This document shows positions 3,779 to 35,283 of a DNA stretch of 36,507 nt, piece after piece (positions within the stretch are counted from its first letter, which is position 1; each line of letters starts with the position of its first letter). Made by a program: the position numbers and the translations under genes. Location: the NCBI GenBank assembly GCA_029975765.1, contig JARKOK010000089.1:1-36507 (forward strand), written 5' to 3'. Source of the DNA: Aggregatilineales bacterium. Its GTDB lineage: Bacteria > Chloroflexota > Anaerolineae > Aggregatilineales > Phototrophicaceae. Below the pieces are notes generated by a model. That model was not told where the DNA came from and did no database searches. It saw only the letters and a list, made by a program, of their open reading frames with translations.

Positions 3779-4297
3779 ATGAGTCAGCGTAAACGCATTC
3801 CACACGTCTGTCCCGCCTGTGGACGGATTCGTTATCTGCAACCTTCAGATGCCGCTAAAACCAAACACTGCCAGCGCTGCCACTGCCAGCAGATCGCCAG
3901 TCTCGGCTTTCAGGCCACCGCAGCGAAGAAAGGGCGCGACTTTGCCATCCGCGCTGCCGCCAGGAAGCGCAAGCAGCACCCCACCACCCTTGAGGCGCAG
4001 GTCGAAGCGGCATTGTGCGAGATTTGCGATATCGCTTGGGAACGAGAATATGCTATTGAGCGCGCGGGACACAACCCGTACTACGTCGATTTCGCAATCC
4101 AGACCGGGCGGCACTTCATCGCGCTCGAAGTTAACGGCAGCTTTGCCCATCGTCAGAACAGCAACGCAGACAACCTTCGCATCGACACGCTGTTCCTCCA
4201 CTTCGATGATGTCATTGTGCTGACCGAGGATGAGCTTACGGCTTCTACCTCGTTACCAGACCTCATCCGGCAGTGCTTATTTCAAACCGGTTCATAA
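3779..4297 (+). CDS. Zinc-ribbon PD-(D/E)XK nuclease-like protein
   Basis: A 172-residue protein. Residues 10-37 hold CPAC and CQRCHC pairs, which suggests a zinc ribbon. Residues about 65-160 resemble the Vsr/DUF559 branch of the PD-(D/E)XK nuclease fold: a conserved helix (TTLEAQVEAAL), then YYVDFAI and, 12 residues on, IALEVNG. These would be the metal-binding Asp and the Glu-x-Asn of the E-x-K position. The Lys of E-x-K is replaced by Asn, so activity is uncertain. The start has AAAGGA 8 bases upstream, and the gene is 14 bases before the methylase-helicase gene, most likely in one transcript. A DNA end- or mismatch-processing role is possible. It could also be an inactive DNA-binding relative. 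Confidence 0.68.
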   Translation: MSQRKRIPHVCPACGRIRYLQPSDAAKTKHCQRCHCQQIASLGFQATAAKKGRDFAIRAAARKRKQHPTTLEAQVEAALCEICDIAWEREYAIERAGHNPYYVDFAIQTGRHFIALEVNGSFAHRQNSNADNLRIDTLFLHFDDVIVLTEDELTASTSLPDLIRQCLFQTGS

Positions 4298-4311
4298 GGA
4301 GAAAATCTGCC

Positions 4312-7300
4312 ATGTCCAGGATGGAAAACCGCGAGGTCATGGGCTTCTACCCCATCGAGACTCGCCATCACCCCGCAATCCTGTCACTGGTCACGCCCGC
4401 CACCCCCGCCACGAAAATCCTCGATCCTTTCGCTGGCGAGGGCGAATTTCTGGCAGCGGCTGCCGAGGCGTGGAATGTCACGCCCTACGCCAACGAACTG
4501 GATGGCGAACGGGCGGCGAAGTGTATCGAGCGCTTCGGCCCCAAACAGGCGGTGCGCTGCGATGCGGAACGGCTGATCGCCAGCAACAACGCCTTTGGAC
4601 TGCTGTGGTGCAATCCACCCTATGACCATGACGGTGCGGGTACACCCGGCAACAAGCGAATCGAGCTGCGCTACCTGCGCCACAGTTGGAAGTGGGCGGC
4701 TGAGGACGGTTTAGTCCTGTGGGTGGTGTATCAGCAGCATCTTACCGAGTCCGCCGCTGAATTCCTCGCCCGTAACGCCAACCATGTGGATGTATGGGCG
4801 CTGCAAGGAAAGCACCTCAATGAATATGAGCAAATTATCGTTGTTGCCGTCAAGGGAGTGTCGCCAAATCCTGAGGCGCTCTACGAACAGATCATGGCGC
4901 AGAAAGCACAACCGCTTCTTCTGGAGGTGCAGCCCGAACCCGTCTACAAACTGCTCCCGCCGCGTCCCATCAGCCGTTTTGTCTTCGCGCCGGATATGAT
5001 TGACGAGCAGCAGGGTTTGCGCCTGATCGAAGAACAGGGGGCGTGGAAAACGCAGGGCTTTCAGGCGCTGCTGCACATTCCCCAGCCACCGCCGCAGATC
5101 GAGCCTGTCGTCGCGCCACGTCCCGGCCACATGGCGCTGGTGCTGGCGGCAGGTGTTGCTAACGGTGCAGTCATCCAGACCGACAATTACGGGCAGGTCG
5201 CCATTCGAGGCAAGACCCAGCATGTTGAGCAGATTGCCCGTGTCGAAATCGAAGCTGACCCCAATGACCCGGAACGGCAGGTGAAGAAGACCACCGTTCG
5301 CCTGAAGCCGACGACCACGCTGACGCTGCTGGCGAGGGATGGCAGCGTGGTCGAGATGGATGGGGACGAAGCACTATTAGGGTTTATCACCGCCAACAAA
5401 AAAGCCATCGCGGATTACCTCAACCACAAGTTCAAGCCGATGTACACCTTCGACATGAACGGCATCGGCAGCTGGCTGGATCGCATCCGGCTGAAGGGCA
5501 AATACCCGATGTATGCCGCCCAAAAACACGTCGTCGCGGCGGTGACACGCGGCTTTCAGGATCGAGACAGTATTCTGCTCGTAGGTTCCATGGGTACAGG
5601 CAAGACGTTGATGGGCGGCTCGACGGCAATTGCGATTGCCTCCGGCGTGGTCAAGGCGCTTCAAGGGCAGATGCGCCCGGATCAGATCTGTCTGATTGTC
5701 GCGCCGCCGCACCTGATTGAGAAATGGAAGCGGGAACTCTACAGCATCAACCCCAATATCATCGCTGAGCGTTTGGACCGCCATGAAGACGTGAAAGCCT
5801 TTTTGCAGCGGGCGGAAATCATCGGCGGGAACATCCCCAAAATCGGGCTGATCAAGCGCGACATGACCAAGCTGGGCTGCGCCTGGGAACCTGCTGTCGT
5901 CTGGCGCAATGAACCGCTGGCGCTCTGGCGGCACGGTCAGCCAACCCCAGAAGGTTACGAGCCGCATCAGCGCATCGTCAAGCAGCGCGTACCGAAGTGT
6001 CCACACTGCGGCTGCACAGTCATGCAGGAAAAGAAGGGGACGACTGCGCCTGCCTCGGAAAGCTGGCTCAGAAGCGGCAAACGGCAATGTGCGGTGTGCC
6101 TGAGTCCGTTGTGGCGAGAAGCGCGGGATCGCGGGTCGCAGCCCAAGCCGGGTGAGAAATACCCGACGAAAAATGCCCGCTACCGCCTGGATGAATACTT
6201 CAAGCGGGTCTACCCTGACCGGCTATTTCTGCTGATCTGGGATGAGGCGCATGAGGCGGCGCACGGCGACACGGGTAACGGTGAGTCGTTTGGGCGCTTC
6301 GCCGGGCTGGCGCACAAGGTGCTGGCGATGACAGGCACACCGTTCAACGGCAAAGCATCGTCGTTGTTCAACCTGCAATACCACCTCAATCCCCGCGTGC
6401 GCCAGCGTTACAACTGGGGCGGTGCACCACGTCTGAGCCGCAAAGTGCATGGCGAACGAGGTTATCAGACTGTCATCGACGATACAGGCAAGCAGCGCGG
6501 GCGCGCCGAGTCGCAGTGGGTGAGCGCGATGGGCGTGCGCGAGCAGGTCATCGAGGAACGCCCCAGCTACAACAGCGAAACCGGGGCATTCACCGGCACA
6601 TCCACGTATCAGCGTCCCTACGAGGAAGCGCCCGGCATCTCGCCGCTGCTGGTCGCGGAAATGCTCGATCACACCATCTATTTCTCGCTCGGCGATTTGG
6701 GAAAATGGCTGCCGCAGTACGAGGAAATTGCGCTGCCGGTGGAAATGGACGGCGACACCTACGAACAATATGACCGCACCCGCCAGCAGCTCAAGGACTA
6801 CCTGATCCAGCGTAAGTGGGAGGGCGACGTGAGTTTTCGCGGCGCATACCTGCAATGGGCGATGGGTTGGGTCAATTCGCCTTTCCGACCGTGCGAGATC
6901 ATCCACAACCTCAAACACCCGATCACGGGCGAGAAGCAGCCGCACATGGTGGCTCAACTGCCGTCTTACGGTGAAGACCGGGTGTATGCCAAAGAACAGG
7001 CGCTCATCGACCTGGTGCGTGCTGAACTGGAACAGAACCGTCCGTGTGTCCTCTACATCCGCCAGACCGACACCCGGGACATCCAGCCGCGCATCGAGAT
7101 GCTCATTCGCCAGCATGTCCCGGCAGCGAAACCGTTCATCCTCAAGAACACGGTGCAGGCGGAACGGCGTGAAGCGGTGATCGAAAAGGAAATCGCGGCA
7201 GGGACAAACGTCCTCATTACTAATCCCATCCTGGTGCAGACCGGACTCGACCTGATCCACTTCCCGACGCTGGTATTCTACGAAATCACCTTCAACCTCT

Positions 7301-8247
7301 CGACCATGATGCAGGCGGCGGCGCGCTCCTATCGCTTAAATCAGACGCACGAACACTGCAAGGTCGTGTACCTGTTTTACGAGGCAACGATGGAACACAC
7401 CGCCGTGCAGCTCATGAGCCGCAAGCAGCGCGCCGCCAAGCTGCTGACGGGAGATGTAGGTTTAACCGGGCTGGACGCACTCACCGAAGGCGAGTCGGGC
7501 TTTGAGGAGGCGCTACTGAATGCCCTGGCACGCGAGGAGCAGCTTCTCAATCCAGCAGAACTCTTCAAAACAGATCGTGCAGCGGGCGAACTGGACACCG
7601 AAGATGCGGGTTACTGGAATGTTGAAGTGGCAGCCGAGCGTATTCCCGAAGAAGCCGGGATGTTCGAGCCGGATGCGCTCATTGAAACCGCCCTGGCGCT
7701 TGGCGGAACGATCATCACCGAAGAGCGACCGCGCACGCCCTTCATCCTGCCCAGACCGGAAAAGACCAATGGATGCGCATATGGCGTTGAACGCGGGTGG
7801 ACTGAAGCTGTCGTCGCTTATCTGGAAACGGTTCATCTGGTCGCCGACGAGGCGCGTTTCGTCAAGCTTCAGGCACAACTCTTCGAGGTGCTGACGCAGG
7901 GTGTCCATGCAGACGACGACACATCGCAAATCGTTGGAGTAAGCCACGAAGACTGGCTACCCGAGCATCAGCCGCCCTTGACCAACTGGATCAGCGCGTG
8001 GCTCAAGCGCGAACGAATGGTGTTCGCGGGCTGCGAGCAGGAGGTTGCCGCCCAGCTCGTTCAACGGGCGCTAACCGCATTGCAACCAACGGTCGACGAA
8101 CCGTTCAAACCGCTGATCGTTAAACGACCCAAACGCGATCTGCTCAGGCTGCCCGATGACGTGCGCGAGGTCGCGCCGACACCCGCCTCGTTTCGTCCCC
8201 GCCCGCCCCAAACGGAAGGCAGCGCCGTTCAACTGGCGCTCTTCTGA
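4312..8247 (+). CDS. N6-adenine methyltransferase-SNF2-type helicase fusion
   Basis: A 1311-residue fusion. Residues 1-200 are an AdoMet-dependent methyltransferase: motif I DPFAGEG (38-44) and the catalytic NPPY (101-104), in the N6-adenine class and resembling DUF6094-type enzymes. From about residue 385 there is a superfamily 2 helicase: Walker A GSMGTGKT (425-432), DEAH (644-647), TGTPFNG nearby, and a C-terminal helicase lobe ending in an arginine-finger segment ARSYR (1005-1009). A four-Cys zinc ribbon (C563/C566 and C593/C596) sits between Walker A and DEAH. I chose the ATG at 4312, with AAGGAG 11 bases upstream, over an earlier in-frame ATG at 4273. The tail (about 1090-1311) is unassigned. 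It may modify and remodel element DNA or act against foreign DNA. No nuclease domain is visible. Confidence 0.9.
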   Translation: MSRMENREVMGFYPIETRHHPAILSLVTPATPATKILDPFAGEGEFLAAAAEAWNVTPYANELDGERAAKCIERFGPKQAVRCDAERLIASNNAFGLLWCNPPYDHDGAGTPGNKRIELRYLRHSWKWAAEDGLVLWVVYQQHLTESAAEFLARNANHVDVWALQGKHLNEYEQIIVVAVKGVSPNPEALYEQIMAQKAQPLLLEVQPEPVYKLLPPRPISRFVFAPDMIDEQQGLRLIEEQGAWKTQGFQALLHIPQPPPQIEPVVAPRPGHMALVLAAGVANGAVIQTDNYGQVAIRGKTQHVEQIARVEIEADPNDPERQVKKTTVRLKPTTTLTLLARDGSVVEMDGDEALLGFITANKKAIADYLNHKFKPMYTFDMNGIGSWLDRIRLKGKYPMYAAQKHVVAAVTRGFQDRDSILLVGSMGTGKTLMGGSTAIAIASGVVKALQGQMRPDQICLIVAPPHLIEKWKRELYSINPNIIAERLDRHEDVKAFLQRAEIIGGNIPKIGLIKRDMTKLGCAWEPAVVWRNEPLALWRHGQPTPEGYEPHQRIVKQRVPKCPHCGCTVMQEKKGTTAPASESWLRSGKRQCAVCLSPLWREARDRGSQPKPGEKYPTKNARYRLDEYFKRVYPDRLFLLIWDEAHEAAHGDTGNGESFGRFAGLAHKVLAMTGTPFNGKASSLFNLQYHLNPRVRQRYNWGGAPRLSRKVHGERGYQTVIDDTGKQRGRAESQWVSAMGVREQVIEERPSYNSETGAFTGTSTYQRPYEEAPGISPLLVAEMLDHTIYFSLGDLGKWLPQYEEIALPVEMDGDTYEQYDRTRQQLKDYLIQRKWEGDVSFRGAYLQWAMGWVNSPFRPCEIIHNLKHPITGEKQPHMVAQLPSYGEDRVYAKEQALIDLVRAELEQNRPCVLYIRQTDTRDIQPRIEMLIRQHVPAAKPFILKNTVQAERREAVIEKEIAAGTNVLITNPILVQTGLDLIHFPTLVFYEITFNLSTMMQAAARSYRLNQTHEHCKVVYLFYEATMEHTAVQLMSRKQRAAKLLTGDVGLTGLDALTEGESGFEEALLNALAREEQLLNPAELFKTDRAAGELDTEDAGYWNVEVAAERIPEEAGMFEPDALIETALALGGTIITEERPRTPFILPRPEKTNGCAYGVERGWTEAVVAYLETVHLVADEARFVKLQAQLFEVLTQGVHADDDTSQIVGVSHEDWLPEHQPPLTNWISAWLKRERMVFAGCEQEVAAQLVQRALTALQPTVDEPFKPLIVKRPKRDLLRLPDDVREVAPTPASFRPRPPQTEGSAVQLALF

Positions 8248-9208
8248 AGTTTTACCAGAAACCCGCGACTTCCTTGCCGCGCTTTTCGCACGTTGTGAGG
8301 CTTACTGGACAACCGCCAGCGTGACGCTCACCGCCATTCACCCCAGTGGCAGCGAGCCGACGCCGTCAAGGCATATCCCACTCAACCAAGCTGACCAACT
8401 TCACGCAGCACTCCAGCGACTGCAGGCAGCAAATAAACTTGGCTGGGGTGCGTACTTCGCCATCGGACTGCGACGGCAGGGACTGGGACGCTGGCAGCGA
8501 GGCGGCAAGAACGACATCCTCGCGCTGCCCGCGCTGTTTGTTGACCTGGACGATCATACCCCGCAGGCGCTGGCGAAGCTGAGAGCCTTCATCCTGCCGC
8601 CGTCGTGCATCGTGGACAGCGGTGGTGGAGGCTTTCACGCCTACTGGTGGCTGCATGAGCCAACAGTTGAGCTTGACCGCGCAAGGCGTATGCTGCAAGC
8701 GTTGACGGCGTACTATTCCAGCGATGCGCTCTCCGTCGCCCAGAGCCTGCGTTTACCTCAGACCCGCAACACGAAACCTCATCGAGGAGGATTATGCCAT
8801 GTGATTGATTTCGCTGACCATCACTACACCCTTGCTGACTTTGAGGCGCTGCTGCCAATGCGTGATTGGCCGTTGCGGAAGCATAAAAAACCGTGCATCA
8901 CCACGCAAACCGTACATACCGTGCAGCCAGTTCGCCCACTCAATCCAGCACTCATGGAAGTGGTTGTAGATGGGCTGTGCCAAAACTATGGCGGCTATCG
9001 CAAGGAGAATGGTTACATCGCGGCGCTGTGTCCCTGCGGTCACGTGCAGGATGCGCCGGGTAAGCACTTCAACTTTGACCTGACGCACGGCATCGGCGTG
9101 TGCTTCGGCAGACACGGACGCATTCTGCTCAAGGCATTGTGCACCATCTTAGGTATCCAGCCTGCTGATTACGGTGGGCTTTTTGTATCTGAAAGGAAAG
9201 ACACATGA
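8156..9208 (+). CDS. RepB-type archaeo-eukaryotic primase
   Basis: Up to 350 residues. The core matches the RepB-like primase family (AEP superfamily): LFVDLDD with metal-binding D130 and D132, then SGGGGFHAYW (155-164) with the conserved His. These enzymes make primers for plasmid or element replication. The C-terminal 80 residues hold a CPCGH segment that could be part of a zinc-binding unit. The start is unclear. The ATG at 8156 lies 92 bases inside the helicase gene and has no good ribosome binding site, and residues 1 to about 31 simply translate the helicase 3' end out of frame. No later ATG precedes the conserved part, so an unusual start or translational coupling near 8245 is possible. 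The stop overlaps the next gene's ATG by 4 bases. Confidence 0.78.
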   Translation: MTCARSRRHPPRFVPARPKRKAAPFNWRSSEVLPETRDFLAALFARCEAYWTTASVTLTAIHPSGSEPTPSRHIPLNQADQLHAALQRLQAANKLGWGAYFAIGLRRQGLGRWQRGGKNDILALPALFVDLDDHTPQALAKLRAFILPPSCIVDSGGGGFHAYWWLHEPTVELDRARRMLQALTAYYSSDALSVAQSLRLPQTRNTKPHRGGLCHVIDFADHHYTLADFEALLPMRDWPLRKHKKPCITTQTVHTVQPVRPLNPALMEVVVDGLCQNYGGYRKENGYIAALCPCGHVQDAPGKHFNFDLTHGIGVCFGRHGRILLKALCTILGIQPADYGGLFVSERKDT

Positions 9209-9894
9209 CCCAACCAAAGGAAACACCCAACACCATCCTCACGCTGACGCTGCCAACCCCCGAAGGCGGTGGCATCGCGCCGGAACGGGCGACCGCGACC
9301 CTGCTCATCCAGCGCGGCGACCTCGCCCATGTACGGCAGTTTCACTATAACGGGCAGCTGGCGGATCTCATCACCGCCATCCGCGAAGGGACTCTCGAAC
9401 TCGGTCTGCTGGAAGACAATCCACCCATCATTCCCGAAACGCCGAAAACCCCACCCAAAACAAAAGCGAAACCGAAGCCCACGACTAAGAAAGCCGCACC
9501 CACGCCGGCGGTTGAAGAAGAACCGACCATCGACATTCCGCTCAGGAAAGGAACAAAGACGGTCAGGATCAGCCACCTGAAGATCGTCGGTGGTGAGACC
9601 GATGCTGCCGCCTACAAACAGGCGGTGCTGATCGCGGCGAAACTGATTGACGGCGGTCTGTGGGACGGCGCTTCACCGATCCGCATCGACGATGTGTACG
9701 CAACGATGCGGAAGATGAAGCATCTCACCGATAGCGAGATGGGTCTGTTCAGTCTCGAAGACTTTGTAAGCCTGGGGGATGCCACTCCCCAGTCAGAAAA
9801 CGGCTCAGACGAGGACGCTGAAATTGCGCTTGGACCCGCGTTAGCCAATGGCAGCCATTCCGAAACGCAATCCGACCAACCCGGTTTGATGTAA
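9205..9894 (+). CDS. Possible PRTRC system protein E-like
   Basis: A 229-residue protein beginning at an ATG that overlaps the primase stop, with AAAGGAAA upstream. Residues about 10-72 are a compact beta-rich domain (ILTLTLP start). Residues 73-106 are a Pro/Lys/Thr-rich linker, and 107-175 a second small helical domain. The tail is acidic and low in complexity. I tentatively compare it with PRTRC protein E because of its place directly before the ubiquitin-like gene and the similar beta-strand opening. Sequence similarity is weak and I would not name it without the context. It is soluble, with no catalytic motif visible. It may be an adaptor of the Ub-like cassette. Confidence 0.5.
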   Translation: MTQPKETPNTILTLTLPTPEGGGIAPERATATLLIQRGDLAHVRQFHYNGQLADLITAIREGTLELGLLEDNPPIIPETPKTPPKTKAKPKPTTKKAAPTPAVEEEPTIDIPLRKGTKTVRISHLKIVGGETDAAAYKQAVLIAAKLIDGGLWDGASPIRIDDVYATMRKMKHLTDSEMGLFSLEDFVSLGDATPQSENGSDEDAEIALGPALANGSHSETQSDQPGLM

Positions 9895-9931
9895 GTCCAG
9901 TTCGTTCACATTACGAAAGGAAAACAATCTC

Positions 9932-10147
9932 ATGTCTGACCCAATCACCTCCAAACCGCGCGTGTTCAAAACCGGCACCGTCCGCATCGTCGAAGATGCC
10001 AGTATGTCAGGGCTGTCGAACGAACAGATTCGTTCGCTGCTCAAGTCCAGCTACCCGGAAGTTGCCAACGCGACCATCCGCGAGAGCCAGCTCGAAGACG
10101 GCACGCCGCTGATCGAGTTCCTCCCACAGCCTGGGCGTAAAGGCTAA
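9932..10147 (+). CDS. Ubiquitin-like protein, PRTRC protein C family
   Basis: A 71-residue protein matching PRTRC system protein C / Prok_Ub in length and layout. It opens with a PRVFKTG strand (residues 9-15), then a 'MSxLSNEQIRSLLKxSYPEVANA' region (25-47), and ends in a strand followed by PGRKG. Known family members end in a similar Gly-Lys-Gly style tail. The final residue is an exposed glycine (G71), as needed for adenylation by a ThiF/E1 enzyme without prior trimming. AAAGGAAA lies 11 bases before the ATG. The gene is followed by a 312-bp regulatory gap. The E2-like and E1-like genes lie 1.4 and 2.5 kb downstream. Family recognition comes from pattern and context, and I consider it good. 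Confidence 0.8.
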   Translation: MSDPITSKPRVFKTGTVRIVEDASMSGLSNEQIRSLLKSSYPEVANATIRESQLEDGTPLIEFLPQPGRKG

Positions 10148-10180
10148 CCGCGATGTTCGGCGCAGGCTTCACTGTGACTT

Positions 10181-10219
10181 AAAGCATAAACGTCCGTTTG
10201 GACACGTTATGCTTTCAAA
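10181..10219. repeat. Head-to-head repeat pair forming a hairpin
   Basis: An inverted copy (10181-10195; on the minus strand GGACGTTTATGCTTT) faces a direct copy (10200-10219, GGACACGTTATGCTTTCAAA). AAAGCATAA (10181-10189) pairs with TTATGCTTT (10207-10215), and GTCC (10192-10195) with GGAC (10200-10203). There is no T-tract, so a terminator is unlikely. Confidence 0.75.
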
Positions 10220-10332
10220 TCGCAGCGCACAGCTTATGTTTTCACCTATCATCTGATAACTGCCGAGGGGAGAATGACATCTTCTGTTCGGCAGTTGTTC
10301 CCGTCGCATACCCAGTTCGTCTCTAAACGTTG

Positions 10333-10352
10333 GGACGCTTTATGCTTCAAAA
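10333..10352 (+). repeat. Direct repeat copy
   Basis: GGACGCTTTATGCTTCAAAA. It matches the consensus GGACA-N3-TATGCTTCAAAA except at the fifth base. An in-frame ATG in the repeat opens a 28-codon frame starting MLQN. Confidence 0.8.
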
Positions 10353-10363
10353 CTTACGACTTT

Positions 10364-10383
10364 GGACAGGATATGCTTCAAAA
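10364..10383 (+). repeat. Direct repeat copy
   Basis: GGACAGGATATGCTTCAAAA, identical over all 20 bases to the copy at 10428-10447. Its ATG opens a 25-codon frame, again starting MLQN and ending at 10450. Confidence 0.85.
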
Positions 10384-10427
10384 CCGATACCTAACAAACC
10401 CAAAACCGCACCAATATCACTCGATTA

Positions 10428-10447
10428 GGACAGGATATGCTTCAAAA
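10428..10447 (+). repeat. Direct repeat copy
   Basis: GGACAGGATATGCTTCAAAA, the second perfect copy. It ends 12 bases before the next gene's ATG. Confidence 0.85.
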
Positions 10448-10450
10448 TGA

Positions 10451-10470
10451 GGACATTTTATGCACCAAGT
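10451..10470 (+). repeat. Degenerate repeat copy over a start codon
   Basis: GGACATTTTATGCACCAAGT keeps GGACA, TATGC and CAA at the consensus spacing. Its ATG is the start codon of the gene at 10460. Confidence 0.6.
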
Positions 10471-10729
10471 CACATTCACATTGACGAGCCTGCGGGAGTG
10501 CCTGGCACAGGTTGAACCGGTCAAGCTCCTGGGGATGGAACTGCTCAGACAGGGGAGCATCCAGCCCCAGGGCGGCTGGTTCCCAACCGGCATTCCTCGC
10601 AGTGAGATGGTCGAGGCGGTCACGGAACTGGTGGGCTACACCCGCCGCTGCGCTTATGCCGCCTCACAAATCAGCCAGCTTGCTTCTGTGCCGCTGACAT
10701 CCCTGCAACTGATGGAGTACGGCTTATGA
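10460..10729 (+). CDS. Small unknown cassette protein
   Basis: An 89-residue protein, mostly helical, with no motif I recognise. Its ATG lies inside the last copy of the GGACA/TATGC repeat, so repeat binding could directly control its expression. Its stop overlaps the next gene's ATG by 4 bases (ATGA at 10726-10729), which supports it being a real, translationally coupled gene. It occupies the place between the ubiquitin-like gene and the putative F-like gene of the PRTRC-like cassette. It could be a cassette adaptor. No catalytic residues are evident. Confidence 0.62.
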   Translation: MHQVTFTLTSLRECLAQVEPVKLLGMELLRQGSIQPQGGWFPTGIPRSEMVEAVTELVGYTRRCAYAASQISQLASVPLTSLQLMEYGL

Positions 10730-11583
10730 CCGATTTGCTTCAGGCTCAATACCTGCTTGTCCTGGGTATGAACGCCGATCCACTCCTGTGCCTGGCGAAT
10801 GCTGTGGCGTGGTTGGATCCGTTCTGGGACGAGTTTGCCGATGAAGACGATTACGGAGAGGACGGCGACACGCTGGCCCTGCGTGTCGTGCGCGACTCCT
10901 TCCCGGATATCTACGTGCAGGTGATTGAACGGCTGCGTTCCGGCAGTTCATGGGACGAGATTGAACGTCTGGTATGCGGCGAAATCGAGAAGCTGGGTAT
11001 CCCGCTGGAGAACCTCGAGTTCATGCCCTACGGTATCCCCATGCCCGCTTACGGCGTAACCCTCGAAGACCCGGAGTTCTATCAAAGCCATGCGGATGTT
11101 GTTCCGGTTGTGCAGGCATTTGGCATTGACCCAACCGCGCATCCCTACCAGGTCGAACTGCCGGAATGCGCCCACATCGCGGGGCAGTCTATCGCCGCCA
11201 GCCTAGACGATCACCCGGATGAAGGCTATCGCAACCTATCGTGGTTGATGCAGTGGTTGTTCTCGTGTTCGGGCAACTCCACCATCGACTTTGACTATGA
11301 AACGATGTGCGAATTCCAACCACTGTCATGGGAGCGTAAGAACATCGATTTCGCCGCTGCCATCATCCACGAAGCGGATGAAATCATCGGTTTTGCCCTC
11401 AGTGGGCTGAAATTCCTGCAAACACATCCCGGCGTTCTAACCGCGCTGCGCGACAACGTGCAGCGCATCTACAAAGCAATCAGCAAATTGCCCAAGGAGA
11501 AACGTCATGACAACCCTCGCGTTCGATGTGTCTGGCCGAGCGTTGGCGCAGGCATTGACCGAACAGCCCTCGCTTGTGCTTAG
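10726..11583 (+). CDS. Possible PRTRC system protein F-like
   Basis: A 285-residue acidic protein. Residues 30-55 are very Asp/Glu-rich. Residues about 200-260 form a helical domain with a pattern like 'LSWExKNIDFAAAIIHEADEI' followed by a Leu-rich helix. I compare it with PRTRC protein F because of its size and its position between the ubiquitin-like and E2-like genes; the sequence similarity itself is not decisive. The 3' end overlaps the E2-like gene by 77 bases in another frame, unlike the 1-8 base overlaps common here. The last 25 or so residues may therefore not be ancestral: a one-base shift would end the protein at an ATGA junction at 11507-11510. Confidence 0.6.
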   Translation: MTDLLQAQYLLVLGMNADPLLCLANAVAWLDPFWDEFADEDDYGEDGDTLALRVVRDSFPDIYVQVIERLRSGSSWDEIERLVCGEIEKLGIPLENLEFMPYGIPMPAYGVTLEDPEFYQSHADVVPVVQAFGIDPTAHPYQVELPECAHIAGQSIAASLDDHPDEGYRNLSWLMQWLFSCSGNSTIDFDYETMCEFQPLSWERKNIDFAAAIIHEADEIIGFALSGLKFLQTHPGVLTALRDNVQRIYKAISKLPKEKRHDNPRVRCVWPSVGAGIDRTALACA

Positions 11584-12217
11584 GTTTTACAGCTACGGCG
11601 TGATGCTCGAAAAGTGGGACGGCGACCGGGTGGCTGAATACCCGGTAGATCCTGCTCAGATCGCGTTGGCGCTCTCAGCCAAAGTTGGATTCGACACGGG
11701 ATTGATGACCGGGAACACCTTGCTGGTACGGTACGAAGGTGTAAAGAAAACCGTCGTCGAGTATCGTCCGCCGGGTAAAACCGGATTGTATTTTGAAGGT
11801 TCAGAAGTGCCGCTGCGCGTGCCGCTGCCCGGAATGCTGATGATCCGGGTGACGGCGGATGACAAAACGCCGCAGCATCAGGTCTACGCGGTGAAGCAGC
11901 GCCCAGACAAGCTCGACATCCCGCTGTTTCACCTGCCGCTGCCGAATGTGTTCACCAGCGGCAGCATCTGCTGGGGCAGTGTGCCAACCGTGTCCGAAAC
12001 GGCACTCAAGGGCAGTTCGTTGGTCGATGACTGGGCGGTGTTCCTCGGCAGTCGCTTCGGCGATCACGGCTGTAATGGTAAGTCGAAGTCGCACCCGCAG
12101 GACATCCGGCAGAAGCTCATCCAGATCGAAGGGCGTAAAGCGCGGGTGTATCCGAAGTCCGATTTGATTCCGGTGAAGAAAACCCTTGCCCAAGTGCTGG
12201 GTGATGATCGTCAGTAA
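11507..12217 (+). CDS. E2-like protein, PRTRC protein B family
   Basis: A 236-residue protein assigned to the Prok-E2 / PRTRC protein B family. The key signature is PNVFTSGSIC at residues 146-155, which matches the eukaryotic E2 active-site layout HPN-[VI]-[YF]-x-x-G-x-[IV]-C closely. Cys155 is the expected thioester cysteine and Leu145 replaces the His of HPN. In known cassettes of this type the protein is thought to accept the activated ubiquitin-like protein from the ThiF/E1 protein. AAGGAG lies 7 bases upstream of the ATG. It ends 13 bases before the next gene. It is soluble and has no membrane segment. The target of any conjugation is unknown. Confidence 0.82.
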   Translation: MTTLAFDVSGRALAQALTEQPSLVLRFYSYGVMLEKWDGDRVAEYPVDPAQIALALSAKVGFDTGLMTGNTLLVRYEGVKKTVVEYRPPGKTGLYFEGSEVPLRVPLPGMLMIRVTADDKTPQHQVYAVKQRPDKLDIPLFHLPLPNVFTSGSICWGSVPTVSETALKGSSLVDDWAVFLGSRFGDHGCNGKSKSHPQDIRQKLIQIEGRKARVYPKSDLIPVKKTLAQVLGDDRQ

Positions 12218-12230
12218 AGGGGAAAAAACG

Positions 12231-12692
12231 ATGGGTTACGATTGTTATCTGACTGTACAGGCGCAAATCTCTGACTCAGCTACAGGGCAGGCGGTTCTCG
12301 ATGTGTTGGAAGCCGATGAGGACTGGGGCGTATTCCCGGTATCCGAGGTCGGAGACGACCATCTTTACTTTCAGTGGGAAGGGCGCAACCGGGATCAAGA
12401 GGCTGTATATGCACTGCTGGAGCCGGTAGGACTGCGCCATGCCATTACGTTTGAGGTGGCATACAGCAGCGATTACGACAGCGGGTTGCGTTTCTTCGTC
12501 GGGGTGGATGCTCAACGACTCAATACACTGCATCAGCTCGACCAGATAGTGGACGTGCTTCAAAACCTGCTGGCACCGCCGCCTCAGCAACTGATCCCGG
12601 TATTGAAGACTTGGCCGCGGCGCGCCGACCTTGAAACGCTTGTGAACGCACTTCATCAATTGCTCTCTGAGGCAGGATGCACACCATCATGA
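12231..12692 (+). CDS. Unknown protein between E2- and E1-like genes
   Basis: A 153-residue protein. I chose the ATG at 12231 with AAAGGGGAAA directly upstream rather than an earlier in-frame ATG at 12186, which lies inside the E2-like gene. The opening 'MGYDCYL' and the aromatic, acidic composition recall small 'Gly-Tyr-Asp' hypothetical proteins common in bacteria, but I cannot assign a fold or function. It lacks the His-x-His...Ser-x-x-Asp motif of JAB peptidases, so it is not the missing deubiquitinase. The last bases overlap the ThiF-like gene. Its place between the E2-like and E1-like genes suggests it works with them. Confidence 0.72.
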   Translation: MGYDCYLTVQAQISDSATGQAVLDVLEADEDWGVFPVSEVGDDHLYFQWEGRNRDQEAVYALLEPVGLRHAITFEVAYSSDYDSGLRFFVGVDAQRLNTLHQLDQIVDVLQNLLAPPPQQLIPVLKTWPRRADLETLVNALHQLLSEAGCTPS

Positions 12693-13456
12693 ATGTCTTT
12701 GACCCTTTCATGCATCTCCAGTCCGTGACTGTCGTGGGCCTGGGCGGTACAGGGTCGCAGGTGGCGCGCAGTCTGGCACGAACCCTCTACGACATGCGCC
12801 GCGCACGTCTGCATACGCCGTCAGTCGTTCTCATTGACCCAGATGTTGTCGAAGAGAAAAATGTCGGTAGACAGATGTTTGCTGCAGGCGACATCGGCCA
12901 GAACAAGAGCCGGGTGCTGGCGCGTCGCTTCAACCAAGCGCTCGGCCTCGAAATCGAAGCTATCGATCAACCAATAGATGCGAAGCGGCACATCGAGCGG
13001 CATGGCAACCTCGTGATCGGTTGCGTGGATAATCATCTCGCCCGCCGCGAATTAGCGAAAGTCGAAGGCATCTGGCTGGATGCAGGCAATCACTTCGACA
13101 GCGGGCAGGTGTGCATCGGTAATTCAACAGATCGTGAAACCCTGTTGCGCCACATCAACGGCGATCAGGGCAAGTATCGCTATCTGCCCAGCCCGGCGCT
13201 GCTGTTTCCCCAACTGCTCGAACCGGAACCCCAGCCCGTGCCACAACCAACACTTTCTTGTGCCGACCTGGTTGCGCGCGGTGAGCAGCACCTGCTCATC
13301 AACGATCTCGTCGCCTGTGTCGTGGCGGGCTATATCTACAAGCTGCTGCACCGCCAGCCCGTAACGACCTTCCTCAGCTACGTCAGCGTGGACGGATTAG
13401 CCGTCCGCAGCCTGCCGATTTCCCGCGACGACCTCCTGCCCTATCTTCACGCCTAA
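12677..13456 (+). CDS. ThiF/E1-like adenylating enzyme
   Basis: A 259-residue Rossmann-fold ThiF/MoeB/E1-superfamily protein of the PRTRC ThiF type. Visible features: GLGGTGSQ (21-28, ATP-binding loop), D54 (after VVLI), N62-V-G-R65 (EKNVGRQ), K77 (QNKS), CVDNHLARR (116-124, ATP/acyl-adenylate site), LDAGN (134-138) and a Cys195 in LSCAD, a position conserved in this family and a candidate catalytic cysteine. It should adenylate the ubiquitin-like protein's C-terminal glycine and pass it to the E2-like protein. The ATG at 12677 is used here. An ATG at 12689 forms the ATGA overlap with the preceding stop and is an alternative, losing four residues. It is the best-supported enzyme of the cassette. 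Confidence 0.9.
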   Translation: MHTIMNVFDPFMHLQSVTVVGLGGTGSQVARSLARTLYDMRRARLHTPSVVLIDPDVVEEKNVGRQMFAAGDIGQNKSRVLARRFNQALGLEIEAIDQPIDAKRHIERHGNLVIGCVDNHLARRELAKVEGIWLDAGNHFDSGQVCIGNSTDRETLLRHINGDQGKYRYLPSPALLFPQLLEPEPQPVPQPTLSCADLVARGEQHLLINDLVACVVAGYIYKLLHRQPVTTFLSYVSVDGLAVRSLPISRDDLLPYLHA

Positions 13457-16481: not shown

Positions 16482-16621
16482 TGCCTTTCCGAGTGAAACA
16501 CCGCCAATCTGAGATCCGATTGTAACCAATTTTAACGGTAATCGACTGTGAAATGCGGTACTATGGTAAAATGAGGGGTTCGCCCCGCCACGCTTGCTCA
16601 CGTTCAACCGGACAGTATGAT

Positions 16622-20133: not shown

Positions 20134-20138
20134 TAGTT

Positions 20139-20741: not shown

Positions 20742-20821
20742 ATGTCCATATCGGCGGTTAACAGCCATAATCTGACCGACAGAAGCGGTGTGTTGTATCG
20801 TAGAGTAAAGGAAATGACCAG

Positions 20822-21058
20822 ATGGACACTGTACGCGAACAAATCTTAGAGGAAATTGACCACCTGACACCCGACCAACAGGCGCATTTGCTGGCGCTGG
20901 CACGCCAACTGCGGCAGTCGAAACTGCCACTCGGTACACCCGGTGATGTGTTGTTGGCGGCGCGTGACCGCTTCACCTTCGCCCCCGGCGACGTGGATGA
21001 GATGATGCAGGCGATTGAGGAAGGCTGCGAGAACATTGACTGGGACAGTTGGCGCTAA
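20822..21058 (+). CDS. Antitoxin partner of PIN toxin
   Basis: A 78-residue acidic protein with a helical N-terminal half ('REQILEEIDHLTPDQQAHLLALARQL') typical of small antitoxins that pair with PIN toxins, and an acidic C-terminal tail ('DEMMQAIEEGCENIDWDSW') that would wrap the toxin. AAAGGA lies 10 bases upstream. The toxin gene overlaps its 3' end. As is usual for this arrangement it probably also represses its own operon, but no operator is obvious. Confidence 0.8.
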   Translation: MDTVREQILEEIDHLTPDQQAHLLALARQLRQSKLPLGTPGDVLLAARDRFTFAPGDVDEMMQAIEEGCENIDWDSWR

Positions 21059-21434: not shown

Positions 21435-21441
21435 GCAAAAT

Positions 21442-24383: not shown

Positions 24384-24779
24384 TTACGCTATTTCATGAT
24401 CATGGAACTTCGGCGGTTGAGCGCGCTCCGGCAACAGGTCATCTTCGCTGATTTCCCGCCAATCCTGGATATGCGCGCCATGTAAACGCCCCCAGGTTTT
24501 GGCGGCGCGTTCGGTGCGTTCCGGTCCCACCTCCGCCAGCATCCGATTGAACTTTTCGGTAGCATCCCCTATGTAGGCACGCCCATCTTCCCCCTGCATC
24601 CGCATCAGTTCGAGATGTTCAAAACGCAGGGAACCATCGGGGTTTTCGTGATAGCGCACCACATCCAGGCTGTAGGTATCAGGCGCAGTGTCAGTGATGT
24701 GGGGCGGATTCAAGACCGGGCCTGCACGAAAGCAGTAGTTTGCACTGCGTCCGCCCAGATCGGGTAAAATCGTCGTCAT
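24384..24779 (-). CDS. Single-unit paralogue of the repeat protein
   Basis: A 131-residue protein whose residues about 14-115 match the third unit of the protein at 26930-27982 (FRAGP, then YSL, KFN, a Thr-Trp pair and HGA motifs at the same spacing). So the element carries a one-unit and a three-unit version of one unrecognised domain. It overlaps topA by ATGA and is the last gene of the minus-strand operon, ending 2 bases from hsdR. The fold is unknown; the strongly conserved aromatic and glycine positions suggest a globular binding domain. Confidence 0.78.
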   Translation of the reverse strand: MTTILPDLGGRSANYCFRAGPVLNPPHITDTAPDTYSLDVVRYHENPDGSLRFEHLELMRMQGEDGRAYIGDATEKFNRMLAEVGPERTERAAKTWGRLHGAHIQDWREISEDDLLPERAQPPKFHDHEIA

Positions 24780-26671
24780 CGTGACTTCCTCCGTTTAGAA
24801 GATGAACGGTGAGTGGTGTTAGCAGTTTCCAGCGGACGGGTGTAGCGGCAGTCAGGATAGCCTGAGCAGCCGAAAAATGAGCCGTTTTTGCCTGTGCGCT
24901 GCCTCAGTGGCTGACCACATTCGGGACAGACTTCGCCCACCGTTGACGGCTGCTTTGGGGATGTTGTGGGAACTGCCGCAACCGTCTGAAGCTGCGGCTG
25001 AAGGGTCTGCCAGAAACGGCGCAGCACTGCCACCCAATCGGCGCTACCATCGGCAATGGCGTCCAATTCAGTTTCGAGCCACGCCGTGAAGTCATAGGCA
25101 AAGAGATCGGCGAATTGCGTGATCAGAAACTCACAGATGACCGCGCCGCGCACGGTCGGCAGCAGTTTGCGGTCTTTGCCCACTTCGATATAGCCGCGTG
25201 CTTTGAGGGTGGCAAGGGTACTGGCGTAGGTGGAAGGTCGCCCGATGCCCTGTGTTTCTAACGCCTGAATGAGCGACGCTTCCGTGTAGCGTCCCGGCGG
25301 ACGGGTAAAACGCTCCACCGGACTCCAGCCCGTGAGCAGCAGCCCTTCGCCCTGTCGCAGTTCGGGCAGCGGCTTGATGTCAGGGTTGTCCCCTGAGTCA
25401 GCCTTTTCCTCCTCATGGGCGTAGACACGCAAAAATCCCTCGAACAACGGTGTACGCCCTCTGGCACGGAACACGGCGGCATCATCGGCACTGACCATAA
25501 CCATCGTTTCGGCAAACTGCGCCGCTGCCATCTGACTGGCAAGGAAGCGGCTCCAGATCAGGGCATACAGCGCGTGGAGGTCGTCGGACAATGCCCCTTT
25601 CACCCCATCCGGTACGCGTGTGACCTCGGTCGGGCGAATGGCTTCATGCGCCTCCTGCGCGGACTGCTTCGCTTTATAGCTGGGCGGCTTCGGCAGCAGA
25701 TAAGCATCACCATAGGCAGCGCGGATGAAGTCGGCGGCGGCGCGCTGCGCCTCCGGCGCGACCTGAACCGCATCGGTTCGCAGGTAGGTGATGAGACCGA
25801 AATGCCGGCCACCCAGGTCAACCCCCTCGTAAAGTTCCTGCGCCAGCCGCATGGTCTTTTCGGGGGCGAAGCCCAGCAGTGTGGATGCCGCCTGCTGCAA
25901 GGTGCTGGTGGTAAAGGGTGGCAGCGGATGACGCGCTTTCTCCCGATGGGCGATGGACTGCACTGAAAAATGGGCAGCGCCCAACGTGGTCATGATCGCG
26001 CGTGTGGTCGCTTCATCCTTCAGGGCAACCTCTGCGCCGCGCCAGCGCATCAGCCGCGCCGTGAATGTCCCATCGCGCGCTTCAACATCCACATCCAGCG
26101 TCCAGTATGCTTCTGGCTGGAAAGATTGAATCGCCCGTTCACGTTCCACCACCAACCGCAGTCCAACCGTCTGTACGCGCCCGGCGGAGAGGCTCTCGCC
26201 CTCAAAGCGTCCCCACAGCAGCGGCGAAAGCTCGTACCCGACCAGCCGATCCACGATGCGGCGCGCCTGCTGTGCGTTGACCAACGCTATGTCAATGCGT
26301 CGCGGTGACTGGAGCGCCGCTTTGACCGCCGCTTCGGCAATCGTGTTGAAAGTGACGCGAAAGACCGGGCAGTGCGGCTTGAGGACTTCGACCAGATGCC
26401 AGGCAATCGCCTCACCTTCCCGATCCGGATCGGTGGCGAGATACAGCACAGCCGCCCCCTTCACCAGTCCCTTGAGCCGCCTGACGATCTCGCTTTTGCC
26501 CGGCAGCACCTCGTAGTGCGGGCGCAAGCTGCCCGGCTCAATCCCCAGTTCACGGTCGGGCAAATCGCGGACGTGACCCAACGAGGCGGCGACGATAAAG
26601 TCGTTGCCCAGGAAGCCGCGAATGGTTTTGACCTTCGCCGGGCTTTCGACGATCAGCAGTTTCTTAGCCAT
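24776..26671 (-). CDS. topA: DNA topoisomerase IA
   Basis: A 631-residue type IA topoisomerase. Toprim domain: VESPAK (8-13) and DPDREGE (81-87). The active-site tyrosine is Y296 in ITYLRTD. Two further conserved segments are GRPSTY near residue 500 and a C-terminal four-Cys zinc finger (CPECG...CSGYPDC). The start is the ATG at 26671 (MAKKLL); an in-frame start 120 bases upstream lies in the preceding gene and is not conserved. Type IA enzymes encoded in conjugative modules help process single-stranded or nicked DNA during transfer. It overlaps its neighbours at both ends. It could be a host-type topA copy, but its position inside the operon argues for an element gene. Confidence 0.94.
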   Translation of the reverse strand: MAKKLLIVESPAKVKTIRGFLGNDFIVAASLGHVRDLPDRELGIEPGSLRPHYEVLPGKSEIVRRLKGLVKGAAVLYLATDPDREGEAIAWHLVEVLKPHCPVFRVTFNTIAEAAVKAALQSPRRIDIALVNAQQARRIVDRLVGYELSPLLWGRFEGESLSAGRVQTVGLRLVVERERAIQSFQPEAYWTLDVDVEARDGTFTARLMRWRGAEVALKDEATTRAIMTTLGAAHFSVQSIAHREKARHPLPPFTTSTLQQAASTLLGFAPEKTMRLAQELYEGVDLGGRHFGLITYLRTDAVQVAPEAQRAAADFIRAAYGDAYLLPKPPSYKAKQSAQEAHEAIRPTEVTRVPDGVKGALSDDLHALYALIWSRFLASQMAAAQFAETMVMVSADDAAVFRARGRTPLFEGFLRVYAHEEEKADSGDNPDIKPLPELRQGEGLLLTGWSPVERFTRPPGRYTEASLIQALETQGIGRPSTYASTLATLKARGYIEVGKDRKLLPTVRGAVICEFLITQFADLFAYDFTAWLETELDAIADGSADWVAVLRRFWQTLQPQLQTVAAVPTTSPKQPSTVGEVCPECGQPLRQRTGKNGSFFGCSGYPDCRYTRPLETANTTHRSSSKRRKSR

Positions 26672-26933
26672 CGGGGATGCGCTCCGGCACAAACAGCCCA
26701 TACTCTTTGAGCAGGGCAATGTCTTCAGCCACCGAATCAGGCGCTGACTCCGGCGGCGCGGCGTCCTCGCGGCGTGCTGACAGGCTGGCAAAAGCCGCTG
26801 CGGGAAGATGCTGGCGCAGCTGGCGCAGGCGCAGTTTGAGGAACAGCGGCCACTCGCGATAGGCGTGATAGGCCTGCTCTTCCAGTTCCTGCCAGGGGCT
26901 GAGGGGAGATGAATTGCGGCGTGCCATCCTCAC
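26664..26933 (-). CDS. Small hypothetical protein in conjugation operon
   Basis: An 89-residue (or 87-residue from ATG 26927) soluble protein, rich in Arg, Leu and Ala with a Pro/Ala-rich linker in the middle. It is followed by and overlaps topA by 8 bases, and its GTG start overlaps the upstream stop (GTGA). This tight coupling supports it as a real gene. It has no recognised motif. It may bind topoisomerase or DNA. Confidence 0.6.
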   Translation of the reverse strand: MRMARRNSSPLSPWQELEEQAYHAYREWPLFLKLRLRQLRQHLPAAAFASLSARREDAAPPESAPDSVAEDIALLKEYGLFVPERIPDG

Positions 26934-27982
26934 AGCTCCACCTCATCGCGGGTGACAGCCGGGAGTGGCTGCATATCCATCTCCACCGTCGGTGTGGTCG
27001 GCTGATGCTGACGATCCAGCTGCGCCGCGTCCACCTCCTGCCATTCCTGCGCCGGTTGTGCGCCGTGGTCGCGCGTCCAGGTGTTGGCGGCGGACACGGC
27101 TGGTCCGACCCCGTGATCGTCCATCAGGTGGTTGAATTTGCCCGCCGCATCGTCAACGTACCCGGCATCCTGCACCTCGACGCGCAGGTATTCCACCTGC
27201 GAGAAACGATATGCTGCGCCCTCGCGCTCAACGTTGACCAGATTGAGGCTGTAGGCCTCAACCGTCTCGCCCTGATCGAGCGCCGGACCCGCGCGGAAGT
27301 AGTAGCCCATATTGGCCTCAAGTTCTTCCTGACGTTCGGTCTTGAAGGGATCGGGCGGGCCTTCGGTGAACAGGCGCGGATCGGCGCGCTCATCATCCAG
27401 CACGCCGTTCTCGACGGCGATGCGTTCGACCTCGCGCATCTCCGCCTCCAATCCCCGTTCTTTGCCCAGCGTCTGGAGCATTTCCTGTTCGGCACGGGCA
27501 TCGCTGGAGCGGTCATACTCGCCCAGCGCCAGCGATTGCAGTCCGTGTTCGCCATCGACTTCCCAGGTCTTGATGCTTTGCAGTTCCACCGTCCCCTGCG
27601 GCTGCGCGACGATATCGTAGGTGTAGTGCAAGCCCTGAAGTTCCTGCTCCCGCAGGGTGGTGAAGGGATCGGGCGGGCCTTCGGTGAACAGCCGTCCATC
27701 GGGGCGTGTCGGGTCGAGTTCGCCCGCCCCTACCGCACCGCGTTCTGCCTCGCGCATCGCAGCCTCTAACCCCTGATCGGCTTTCAGCTCAACCAGTTCC
27801 ATCTCGGCATCCAGCGCATCCTGGAACTGGTCGTAGCGCCCGACGATCAGCGTTTGCTGTCCTTCGGCCCAAGACTTGGTGAGTTCGACCAGCGGCCCCT
27901 CGCCGGGATTGATGCCGCTGGCAAAGTAGTAAATCGCACTCTGGTCGTCCAATTCGTTCTGATTCGCGGAAATGTCACTCAT
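26930..27982 (-). CDS. Three-unit repeat protein
   Basis: A 350-residue protein of three related units at about 17-113, 119-219 and 226-320. Units 1 and 2 end in the identical RLFTEGPPDPF (97-107 and 203-213). Unit 3 matches the single-unit protein at 24384-24779. No signal peptide or membrane segment is visible. I chose the ATG at 27982, with AAAGGAG 7 bases upstream; a GTG at 28006 is 24 bases earlier and overlaps the VirB4 stop. The domain family is unknown to me. It is cytoplasmic and next to VirB4 and topA, so it may act in substrate processing for transfer. Confidence 0.85.
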   Translation of the reverse strand: MSDISANQNELDDQSAIYYFASGINPGEGPLVELTKSWAEGQQTLIVGRYDQFQDALDAEMELVELKADQGLEAAMREAERGAVGAGELDPTRPDGRLFTEGPPDPFTTLREQELQGLHYTYDIVAQPQGTVELQSIKTWEVDGEHGLQSLALGEYDRSSDARAEQEMLQTLGKERGLEAEMREVERIAVENGVLDDERADPRLFTEGPPDPFKTERQEELEANMGYYFRAGPALDQGETVEAYSLNLVNVEREGAAYRFSQVEYLRVEVQDAGYVDDAAGKFNHLMDDHGVGPAVSAANTWTRDHGAQPAQEWQEVDAAQLDRQHQPTTPTVEMDMQPLPAVTRDEVEL

Positions 27983-28002
27983 GACAAAAGCTCCTTTATG
28001 CT

Positions 28003-30156: not shown

Positions 30157-30622
30157 CGCGTCTCCCTTCCCATTCCACCAACCGCAGCCCGCCCGCGCCT
30201 TCTAACTCCTCCAGGCTGGCAAACAAGATCCATTCGCCCAGATCGCCATCGACGGACTGCATTGAAGCGGCAAACAGGCGTTCTCCGCGCAGGTAGGCCG
30301 CTGCCGGGTTCAGGCTCAACACCTGCGCCATCTGCGCACCCAGCCCGTCGCGCCGTTTGGCAGCGCGCAGGACAATCCCGCCGCGCCAGCCCAGCAGCAC
30401 CCGCTGCCACAGCGGCAGACCTCCCGGCGCGCCCGACAGGATCAGCAGCCCGGCAAAAACCGCGATCAACGCTGGAAGCGACAGTCCAGCGAGCGGAGTC
30501 AGGCGCAGCAGCATGAAGATCAGCACTGCACCCACGCCGCAGAAGATCAGGCGTTTCATCGAGATGCTGCCGAAGCCTTTCTCCTCGCGCAGCCGGACGT
30601 TGGATTTAAAGTGTGCTGCCAT
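30131..30622 (-). CDS. PrgI/VirB3-like membrane protein
   Basis: A 163-residue protein with two membrane segments (about 24-42 and 46-64) near the N-terminus, then a cytoplasmic domain. This size and layout, directly upstream of VirB4, is typical of PrgI-family proteins of conjugative elements, which take the VirB3 role. The ATG at 30622 has AAAGGAGG 12 bases upstream; a TTG 24 bases earlier is less likely. The family is assigned from position and topology, not from a clear motif. Confidence 0.72.
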   Translation of the reverse strand: MAAHFKSNVRLREEKGFGSISMKRLIFCGVGAVLIFMLLRLTPLAGLSLPALIAVFAGLLILSGAPGGLPLWQRVLLGWRGGIVLRAAKRRDGLGAQMAQVLSLNPAAAYLRGERLFAASMQSVDGDLGEWILFASLEELEGAGGLRLVEWEGRRDGGTAAAR

Positions 30623-30691
30623 CGGTATGGATAACCTCCTTTCCAAGAGGACACTGGCAATCGCAATGCCCTCTCATCGGTTGGTAGACCT

Positions 30692-30940
30692 TCATCCCCC
30701 AATCCCCAGCGTCGCCAGCCCGCCGCCGCCGACGAAGATCAGCAGCAGCAGACCAATCGTCACCTGACTGGCGGCTTTGGGATTGTCGCGCTTCCAGTCA
30801 GAGATCAGCGGCCATGACGAGCCGAGATACAGGATCGCCAACCCGATCACGCCGATCACCGCCAGGCTGCCGCTGACCAGCAGCAGCAGCGCCTCGAACT
30901 CGGTGAAAAAACCTTCAATCGTTGTCCCTAAGTCACCCAT
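30692..30940 (-). CDS. Small two-TM VirB2/Maff2-like protein
   Basis: An 82-residue protein with two hydrophobic segments (about 17-39 and 60-80), a short loop between them and no long signal sequence. Small proteins of this form, placed upstream of PrgI and VirB4, are usually VirB2-like pilins or Maff2-type membrane proteins of Gram-positive conjugative elements. The Gly-rich end (GGGGLATLGIGG) fits a tightly packed membrane helix. No motif separates the possibilities. Confidence 0.62.
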   Translation of the reverse strand: MGDLGTTIEGFFTEFEALLLLVSGSLAVIGVIGLAILYLGSSWPLISDWKRDNPKAASQVTIGLLLLIFVGGGGLATLGIGG

Positions 30941-30999
30941 CTGTCGTCTCCTTCACGTGTCTGATTTATCGGTGCCCCAGAAAAAAGTAGAAATGGGCA

Positions 31000-35270: not shown

Positions 35271-35283
35271 GCTCGCCTCCTGC

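Follow-up and report, generated by a model that had tools for sequence, protein, structure and literature searches.

A putative JAB-free ubiquitin-like conjugation cassette in the backbone of an integrative/conjugative element of Chloroflexota

We analyzed contig JARKOK010000089.1 of the Aggregatilineales bacterium assembly GCA_029975765.1, referred to here as the window; it is one entire contig of 36,507 bp from an assembly of 594 contigs. At positions 9205-13456, seven tightly packed genes on one strand include those for a ubiquitin-like protein (Ub), a family-D E2 and a ThiF-type E1, with the order and coordinates given in a preliminary description of this DNA. As far as sequence comparison can tell, this is very probably a functional Ub-like conjugation cassette of the type 6d/PRTRC kind that works without a JAB protease. 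The best explanation of the data as a whole, to which we give an even chance, is one-way conjugation of Ub to the replication proteins of the element, in a lineage that has long been without JAB. Judged from gene content and motifs, the claim that the targets are proteins of the replication complex falls a little short of an even chance, and a mechanism centred on the sliding clamp is offered tentatively.

The identity of the three core proteins was assessed with profiles, alignments and structure prediction. The E2 matched PF14460 with an E value of 1.3e-17 and the E1 matched PF00899 with an E value of 4.4e-16, both above cut-off. The Ub gave a weak match in the single-sequence search (PF14454, E value 1.4e-3, below cut-off); it could be aligned with 25 relatives, and AlphaFold2, using a 24-sequence alignment, predicted a ββ-α-ββ arrangement (strands 11-14, 17-20, 48-53 and 59-64, helix 30-38) with a predicted local distance difference test score (pLDDT) of 82 and a flexible C-terminal GRKG. 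The structural neighbours of this model were ubiquitins and protein G, i.e., beta-grasp proteins, with Z scores of only 4-5 for 71 residues. The three assignments of the preliminary description, including the beta-grasp fold of the 71-aa protein, are thus upheld. Moreover, F was predicted to be all-helical (pLDDT 87) and could be aligned with F from JAB-bearing loci; its model found no match in the PDB with Foldseek, and we regard it as the alpha-helical protein of the type 6d operon of Iyer et al. (PMC1779556). With the PRTRC equivalog models, the E1 reached 140.7 bits against TIGR03736 (PRTRC_ThiF; cut-off 144.75), just missed, while the ThiF of the nearest relative passed with 151.4 (locus L096; L, G, C and f numbers are our labels for loci, genomes, contigs and families). 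The E2 (protein B) scored 54.9 against TIGR03737, significant yet well below the cut-off of 131.45, and the Ub (protein C) scored 21.1 against TIGR03738, also below its cut-off of 45.95 (E value 2.6e-4).

The E1 contains the nucleotide-binding GxGGTG, Arg65, Lys77 and Asp118, together with an invariant Cys195. We searched 154 genomes of the window's order, found E2 in 37 and examined 64 loci, 63 of them with both E2 and E1; the catalytic Cys of E2 was kept in 63 of the 64. Omega values were 0.04-0.25 for E1 and E2, and 0.05-0.17 for Ub versus relatives. These comparisons point to purifying selection on all three proteins, with their predicted catalytic residues intact. A ThiF-type E1 taken alone would also fit a sulfur-carrier system like ThiS/MoaD, in which the enzyme makes a Ub thiocarboxylate for biosynthesis, and the Ub does end in a single Gly after Lys. 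However, a dedicated family-D E2 with so conserved a Cys, the invariance of the E1 Cys, and the absence of rhodanese, thiazole and molybdopterin genes nearby speak against it, and we regard sulfur-carrier chemistry as quite improbable.

No JAB, ParB or ParM gene was found in the window, in line with the preliminary description. Since the window spans one complete contig of a fragmented assembly, the absence of JAB there is weak proof by itself, and both the whole genome and the relatives were searched. In the window's own genome, the best match to TIGR03735 (protein A, the JAB) had an E value of only 0.68, and PRTRC ParB (TIGR03734) gave no match at an E value of 10. None of the 64 order loci had a JAB gene, including all 63 with both E2 and E1, and these two genes mostly overlapped by 4 bp. 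The PRTRC-type JAB profile found nothing in eight genomes of the order searched whole, among them the single-contig genome G683, and detected JAB in four positive-control genomes. Matches to a JAMM regular expression in the order loci were short spurious open reading frames (ORFs). Two JAMM proteins of the own genome (C571 and C343) were also considered as JABs acting in trans and rejected as cognate ones, as they scored 5-6 bits with the PRTRC-type profile, versus at least 177 for true ones; the C571 contig also carries a MoeB/ThiF-like gene.

These data bear on the suspicion that this is a decayed or incomplete PRTRC operon, with its JAB on an unassembled contig or the whole cassette a pseudogene. 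The number of contigs in the assembly and the presence of one degraded copy in G683 would agree with it. Nevertheless, all 63 relatives lack JAB and have adjacent E2 and E1, also on long contigs and in a single-contig genome, omega is low, and the catalytic residues are conserved; this explanation is very improbable and already largely refuted. Because JAB is absent across the order loci and from whole genomes including G683, with the positive controls detected, its loss in the window's lineage is real and old, and not an artefact of contig ends or a case of local decay. Irreversible tagging, which the preliminary description had raised, would be plausible given that no PRTRC-type JAB was found in the eight whole-searched genomes of the lineage.

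Most other Chloroflexota loci carry JAB between E2 and E1, according to local annotation with hidden Markov models (HMMs). In a tree of E1 and E2 from 58 loci, the 11 sampled loci of the window's order formed one clade (support 100/100), and the JAB state required four changes, all of them forced by supported branches. Two more JAB-less groups, f127 (L112 and L116) and f25 (L041-L045 and L056), were nested among JAB-bearing relatives; JAB was thus lost in at least two further lineages, and the Ub there is unfused and ends in Gly where it was recovered. Outside Chloroflexota, JAB may also be absent from two PRTRC-like plasmid loci, L138 of Aliivibrio salmonicida (6428-7786) and L137 of Geoalkalibacter, where the ThiF-adjacent slot holds no recognisable JAB; a DnaN gene lies near L138. 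In L121, a JAB gene (10293-10853) has an apparently frameshifted JAMM region (HPRQRQ) and is possibly decaying.

The C-terminus of Ub offered a possible reason for the loss. All 54 Ub proteins recovered from order loci end at Gly, nearly always as G[RK]KG; where none was recovered, the upstream part was missing from the sequence, or transposon genes lay directly upstream of x1 (L186, L187 and L213). In most JAB-bearing loci of Chloroflexota and cyanobacteria, the Ub is extended beyond GTKG by a tail some 80 residues long, often ending in G-[FWLY], so that a JAB would have to cut Ub from tail; in some loci, the tail has been split off as its own gene. The two cassette genes left unnamed in the preliminary description are x1, a homolog of this tail, and x2, an accessory gene. 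The assignment of x1 as a split Ub tail came from profile-profile comparison (hhalign probability 94, E value 1.4e-7, almost full length), and the tail HMM by itself had missed it. Within the phylum, the Ub ended exactly at Gly in 15 of 15 JAB-less loci from which it was recovered and in 6 of 32 JAB-bearing loci, the other 26 being tailed or overhanging (raw Fisher p 7e-8, a value inflated by relatedness). In f127, JAB-bearing relatives already have a split tail, which fits an order of events, inferred from few events, in which the split came first and JAB was lost later. That x1 persists as a gene after the split suggests that the tail has a function of its own. Many tails, either fused or split (L035, L047, L092, L098, L103 and others), share a conserved terminus of GF, GW, GY or GL. 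The Ub-tail fusions of L053 (10751-11215) and L054 (10887-11351) read GTKA rather than GTKG at the expected cleavage point, and JAB is present in both loci.

Next, the surroundings of the cassette were compared among elements. The order RNaseH-g1811-methylase/helicase-primase-E-Ub-x1-F-E2-E1 recurred, whole or in part, in four genomes (G618, G683, G600 and G465), and a topoisomerase/TraG-VirB4/TrbL block was likewise common to them, while the restriction-modification region varied. Because the shared gene order recurs across elements and the restriction-modification region does not, we conclude that the Ub cassette is conserved backbone of an integrative/conjugative element, not cargo, and that it is continuous with the replication genes; the last 4 bp of the primase-like gene are shared with the start of E. 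G683, a single contig, has three copies of the element, one of them degraded, so the element is integrated there. The degraded third copy is L129 (G683:C1:2121000-2140500), in which E1, E2, F and the helicase are fragmented. In a single-protein search, E2 was found in 23 of 400 sampled genomes of the phylum, or 22 of 399 without the window's own, consistent with the earlier label of the element as Chloroflexota-like. Relatives were also found on plasmids of Chloroflexota, Cyanobacteria and Proteobacteria; plasmid NZ_CP128402.1 of Candidatus Chlorohelix (Chloroflexota) carries a cassette locus, and annotated plasmid examples have the order Ub, F, E2, JAB, ThiF. No relatives were found in the viral contigs scanned with E1.

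This backbone position bears on two further explanations. In the first, the cassette would be an anti-phage defence module like Bil or the type II cyclic-oligonucleotide-based anti-phage signalling system (CBASS), with phage proteins or defence proteins as the targets of Ub. Other bacterial Ub-like systems do act in defence (PMC10097602, PMC11354881), and the E1 weakly resembles, in its adenylation part only, the E1 part of the PADLOC E1-E2 and BilD models. However, E2, Ub, F, x1 and x2 matched no PADLOC model, no CD-NTase or effector lies nearby, and the cassette is conserved with helicase and primase in elements whose restriction-modification genes vary, so that we hold defence to be unlikely. 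In the second, tagging would determine how stable a toxin-like or segregation protein is and thereby stabilise the element, as a post-segregational or partition-type maintenance system. An addiction role was proposed by Iyer et al. in 2006 (PMC1779556), PRTRC operons carry ParB on plasmids, and a backbone position agrees with it; against this, the PRTRC-model ParB is absent from the genome, and an addiction mechanism would need a pair of opposed activities, which a system lacking JAB does not have. We think this, too, is an unlikely account. The broader role in maintenance or replication that the preliminary description had mentioned is better backed than could be known at the time, through the backbone position, the continuity with helicase and primase, and relatives with clamp motifs and DnaN.

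The bacterial sliding-clamp-binding consensus is QLxLF, usually C-terminal (PMC4549789; PMC3716654). Of 45 automatically picked E proteins, 18 had a strict C-terminal Q[LMI]x[LM]F, compared with none among 239 core genes of the cassette and 11 among 2183 further ORFs (Fisher 2e-25, in a count that treats related loci as independent). Some of these 11 were polymerase-domain genes or E genes that the picker had missed. Read separately, further E proteins with the motif were those of L116, L117 and three cyanobacterial plasmids (QITLF, QLTLF and QLNLF). The E of family f91 ends in Q[LM]SLF, and the motif is also kept in one f94 locus. The helicase had a C-terminal clamp motif in 36 of 38 order loci, being QLALF in the window. 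In addition, about 15 loci had a DnaN homolog next to the cassette, and the six homologs that were checked each had all three clamp domains. No link of PRTRC/type-6d operons to the sliding clamp was found in the literature, in a search that covered subscription journals thinly.

Taken together, the Ub would emerge from translation with a free terminal Gly, the ThiF-type E1 would adenylate this Gly and, given the invariant residues, probably take the Ub as a thioester on Cys195, and the Ub would then pass to Cys155 of E2, which would join it to an amine of the target. As no cognate JAB was found in the genome, the system probably lacks a means of its own to take the tag off again. With the tail encoded separately as x1, JAB may have become dispensable for maturation; the gene split is directly visible, and its place in the causal order is our proposal. 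The likeliest targets would be proteins in the replication complex of the element itself, because the cassette lies in the backbone, comes directly after helicase and primase, and belongs to a module whose proteins have clamp-binding C-termini. A more specific version, which we put forward as doubtful but worth stating, is that the Ub-like systems of these elements modify sliding-clamp-bound proteins, as an independent analogue of PCNA ubiquitylation and SUMOylation, and that modification became one-way in this order when JAB was lost after the Ub-tail split.

Several observations weigh against one-way conjugation to replication proteins, in addition to the relatedness of the loci in the motif count and the sulfur-carrier alternative. 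The window's own E ends in QPGLM, the clamp motif is gone from most E proteins of its family, f1, and only the helicase keeps it here. DnaN is absent from the window and was undetected in the sampled loci of its order. The association of JAB with the Ub end comprises only three phylogenetically independent pairs, two of them favouring it and none against. Finally, the genome has two other JAMM proteins, and a host protease unrelated to the PRTRC JAB could deconjugate the Ub.

Table 1. Features of the window, with the evidence for each assignment.
Feature	Position	Strand	Evidence
Methyltransferase (DUF6094)-helicase fusion, 1324 aa, C-terminus QLALF	4273..8247	+	PF19587, PF04851, PF00271
Primase-like, RepB primase N-terminal domain	8156..9208	+	PF16793 E value 8.5e-5, just under cut-off; conserved in order
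E-type protein, 229 aa, ends QPGLM (degenerate)	9205..9894	+	Position and homologs
Ubiquitin-like protein (C), 71 aa, ends PGRKG	9932..10147	+	Profiles, alignment, AlphaFold2, omega
Non-autonomous transposon, 302 bp	10173..10474		Terminal inverted repeats, target-site duplication, internal repeats
x1, 89 aa, stand-alone Ub-tail homolog	10460..10729	+	hhalign and conserved alignment
F-type all-helical protein, 285 aa	10726..11583	+	Alignment, AlphaFold2
E2-like protein (B), family D, predicted catalytic Cys155 in PNVFTSGSICWG	11507..12217	+	PF14460
x2, 153 aa, in JAB slot of other lineages, without JAMM motif	12231..12692	+	Order-wide homologs, omega
E1-like ThiF protein, 259 aa	12677..13456	+	PF00899, TIGR03736, invariant residues
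Backbone conjugation block: topoisomerase, TraG/VirB4-like, TrbL-like, neighbours	24776..35492	-	Conserved in relatives

The features are listed in Table 1; the E-type protein had no Pfam or NCBIfam match. Between Ub and x1 lies a mini-transposon with 18-bp terminal inverted repeats (TGTGACTT, 83% complementary), a TTCAC target-site duplication and five internal repeats of about 20 nt each. The empty site is seen in L190 (GGCTTCACATTGACG), where x1 starts with MFGAGFTLTSL; in the window it starts with MHQVTFTLTSL, the ATG and the first five codons (MHQVT) being supplied by the transposon end with the reading frame kept. TniB- and TniQ-like genes stand directly upstream of x1 in L186 (6322-9220), L187 (302-3200) and L213 (6405-9303), their domains having been called in L187 and assigned by homologous ORFs in the other two, and the transposon end sequence of L186 and L187 matches that of the window. 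The x2 gene was present in about eight relatives, as an accessory gene of a subclade. It occupies the JAB slot in six loci (the window, L186, L187, L189, L190 and L227) and follows E1 in two (L215 and L219). Its omega of 0.13-0.23 indicates purifying selection; x2 has no Pfam match and no JAMM motif, and tblastn against plasmids gave no match. Between the cassette and the restriction-modification genes, a DUF4058 protein gene lies on the opposite strand (15382-16446), and the type I restriction-modification genes HsdM, HsdS and HsdR (16553-24381) make up variable cargo within the element.

PRTRC/type-6d operons have been known from sequence since 2006, and no experimentally established function for them was found in the literature searched. 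A large JAB-free lineage would mean that conjugation can persist stably with no cognate deconjugation, and the pattern of fused and split tails suggests what JAB is needed for, i.e., maturation, and when it can be lost. The clamp motif of E, that of the helicase and the DnaN neighbours lead to a testable claim about the target, namely the sliding clamp and its clients; if true, replication in bacteria would be subject to a ubiquitin-like control akin to PCNA modification.

Among known systems, Bil (BilABCD) and type II CBASS Cap2-Cap3 share bacterial Ub-like/E1/E2 conjugation with the cassette. They differ in having other E1 and E2 families, a defence context and a JAB that serves maturation or reversal, and their component set was not found at the window locus. 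Closer are the operons of cyanobacterial plasmids (Anabaena pANACY.02, Sphaerospermopsis, Leptolyngbya and Gloeothece), with an E ending in QLTLF, QITLF or QLNLF followed by Ub, F, E2 and E1; a primase-polymerase lies upstream in Anabaena, and DnaN and polymerase genes lie downstream in Anabaena and Sphaerospermopsis. Unlike the window, these operons have JAB, and their Ub is fused to the tail after GTKG. The type 6d operon (PMC1779556) shares a stand-alone Ub with a C-terminal Gly, a family-D E2, a ThiF-like E1 and the alpha-helical F; however, according to that paper its JAB is always fused or in the immediately adjacent gene, which is not the case here. PRTRC (NCBIfam TIGR03734-TIGR03742; e.g., Aromatoleum aromaticum plasmid 1) has the E-C-F-B-(A)-ThiF order, the family-D E2, a PRTRC-like ThiF, a Ub ending in GTKG or GRKG, and a location on plasmids or conjugative elements in common with the cassette, whereas in the window protein A and PRTRC ParB are missing, the proteins fall below the equivalog cut-offs, the tail is a separate x1, and the cassette is joined to helicase-primase genes. 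Of the earlier proposal of a reduced PRTRC variant, the kinship holds, since gene order, E2 family, ThiF and the all-helical F match PRTRC and type 6d, and membership in PRTRC as defined by NCBI does not, with three proteins under the equivalog cut-offs and both JAB and ParB absent. On sequence grounds, the cassette would thus stand outside PRTRC in the NCBI sense and outside type 6d as delimited by its JAB, but inside the broad 6d/PRTRC family.

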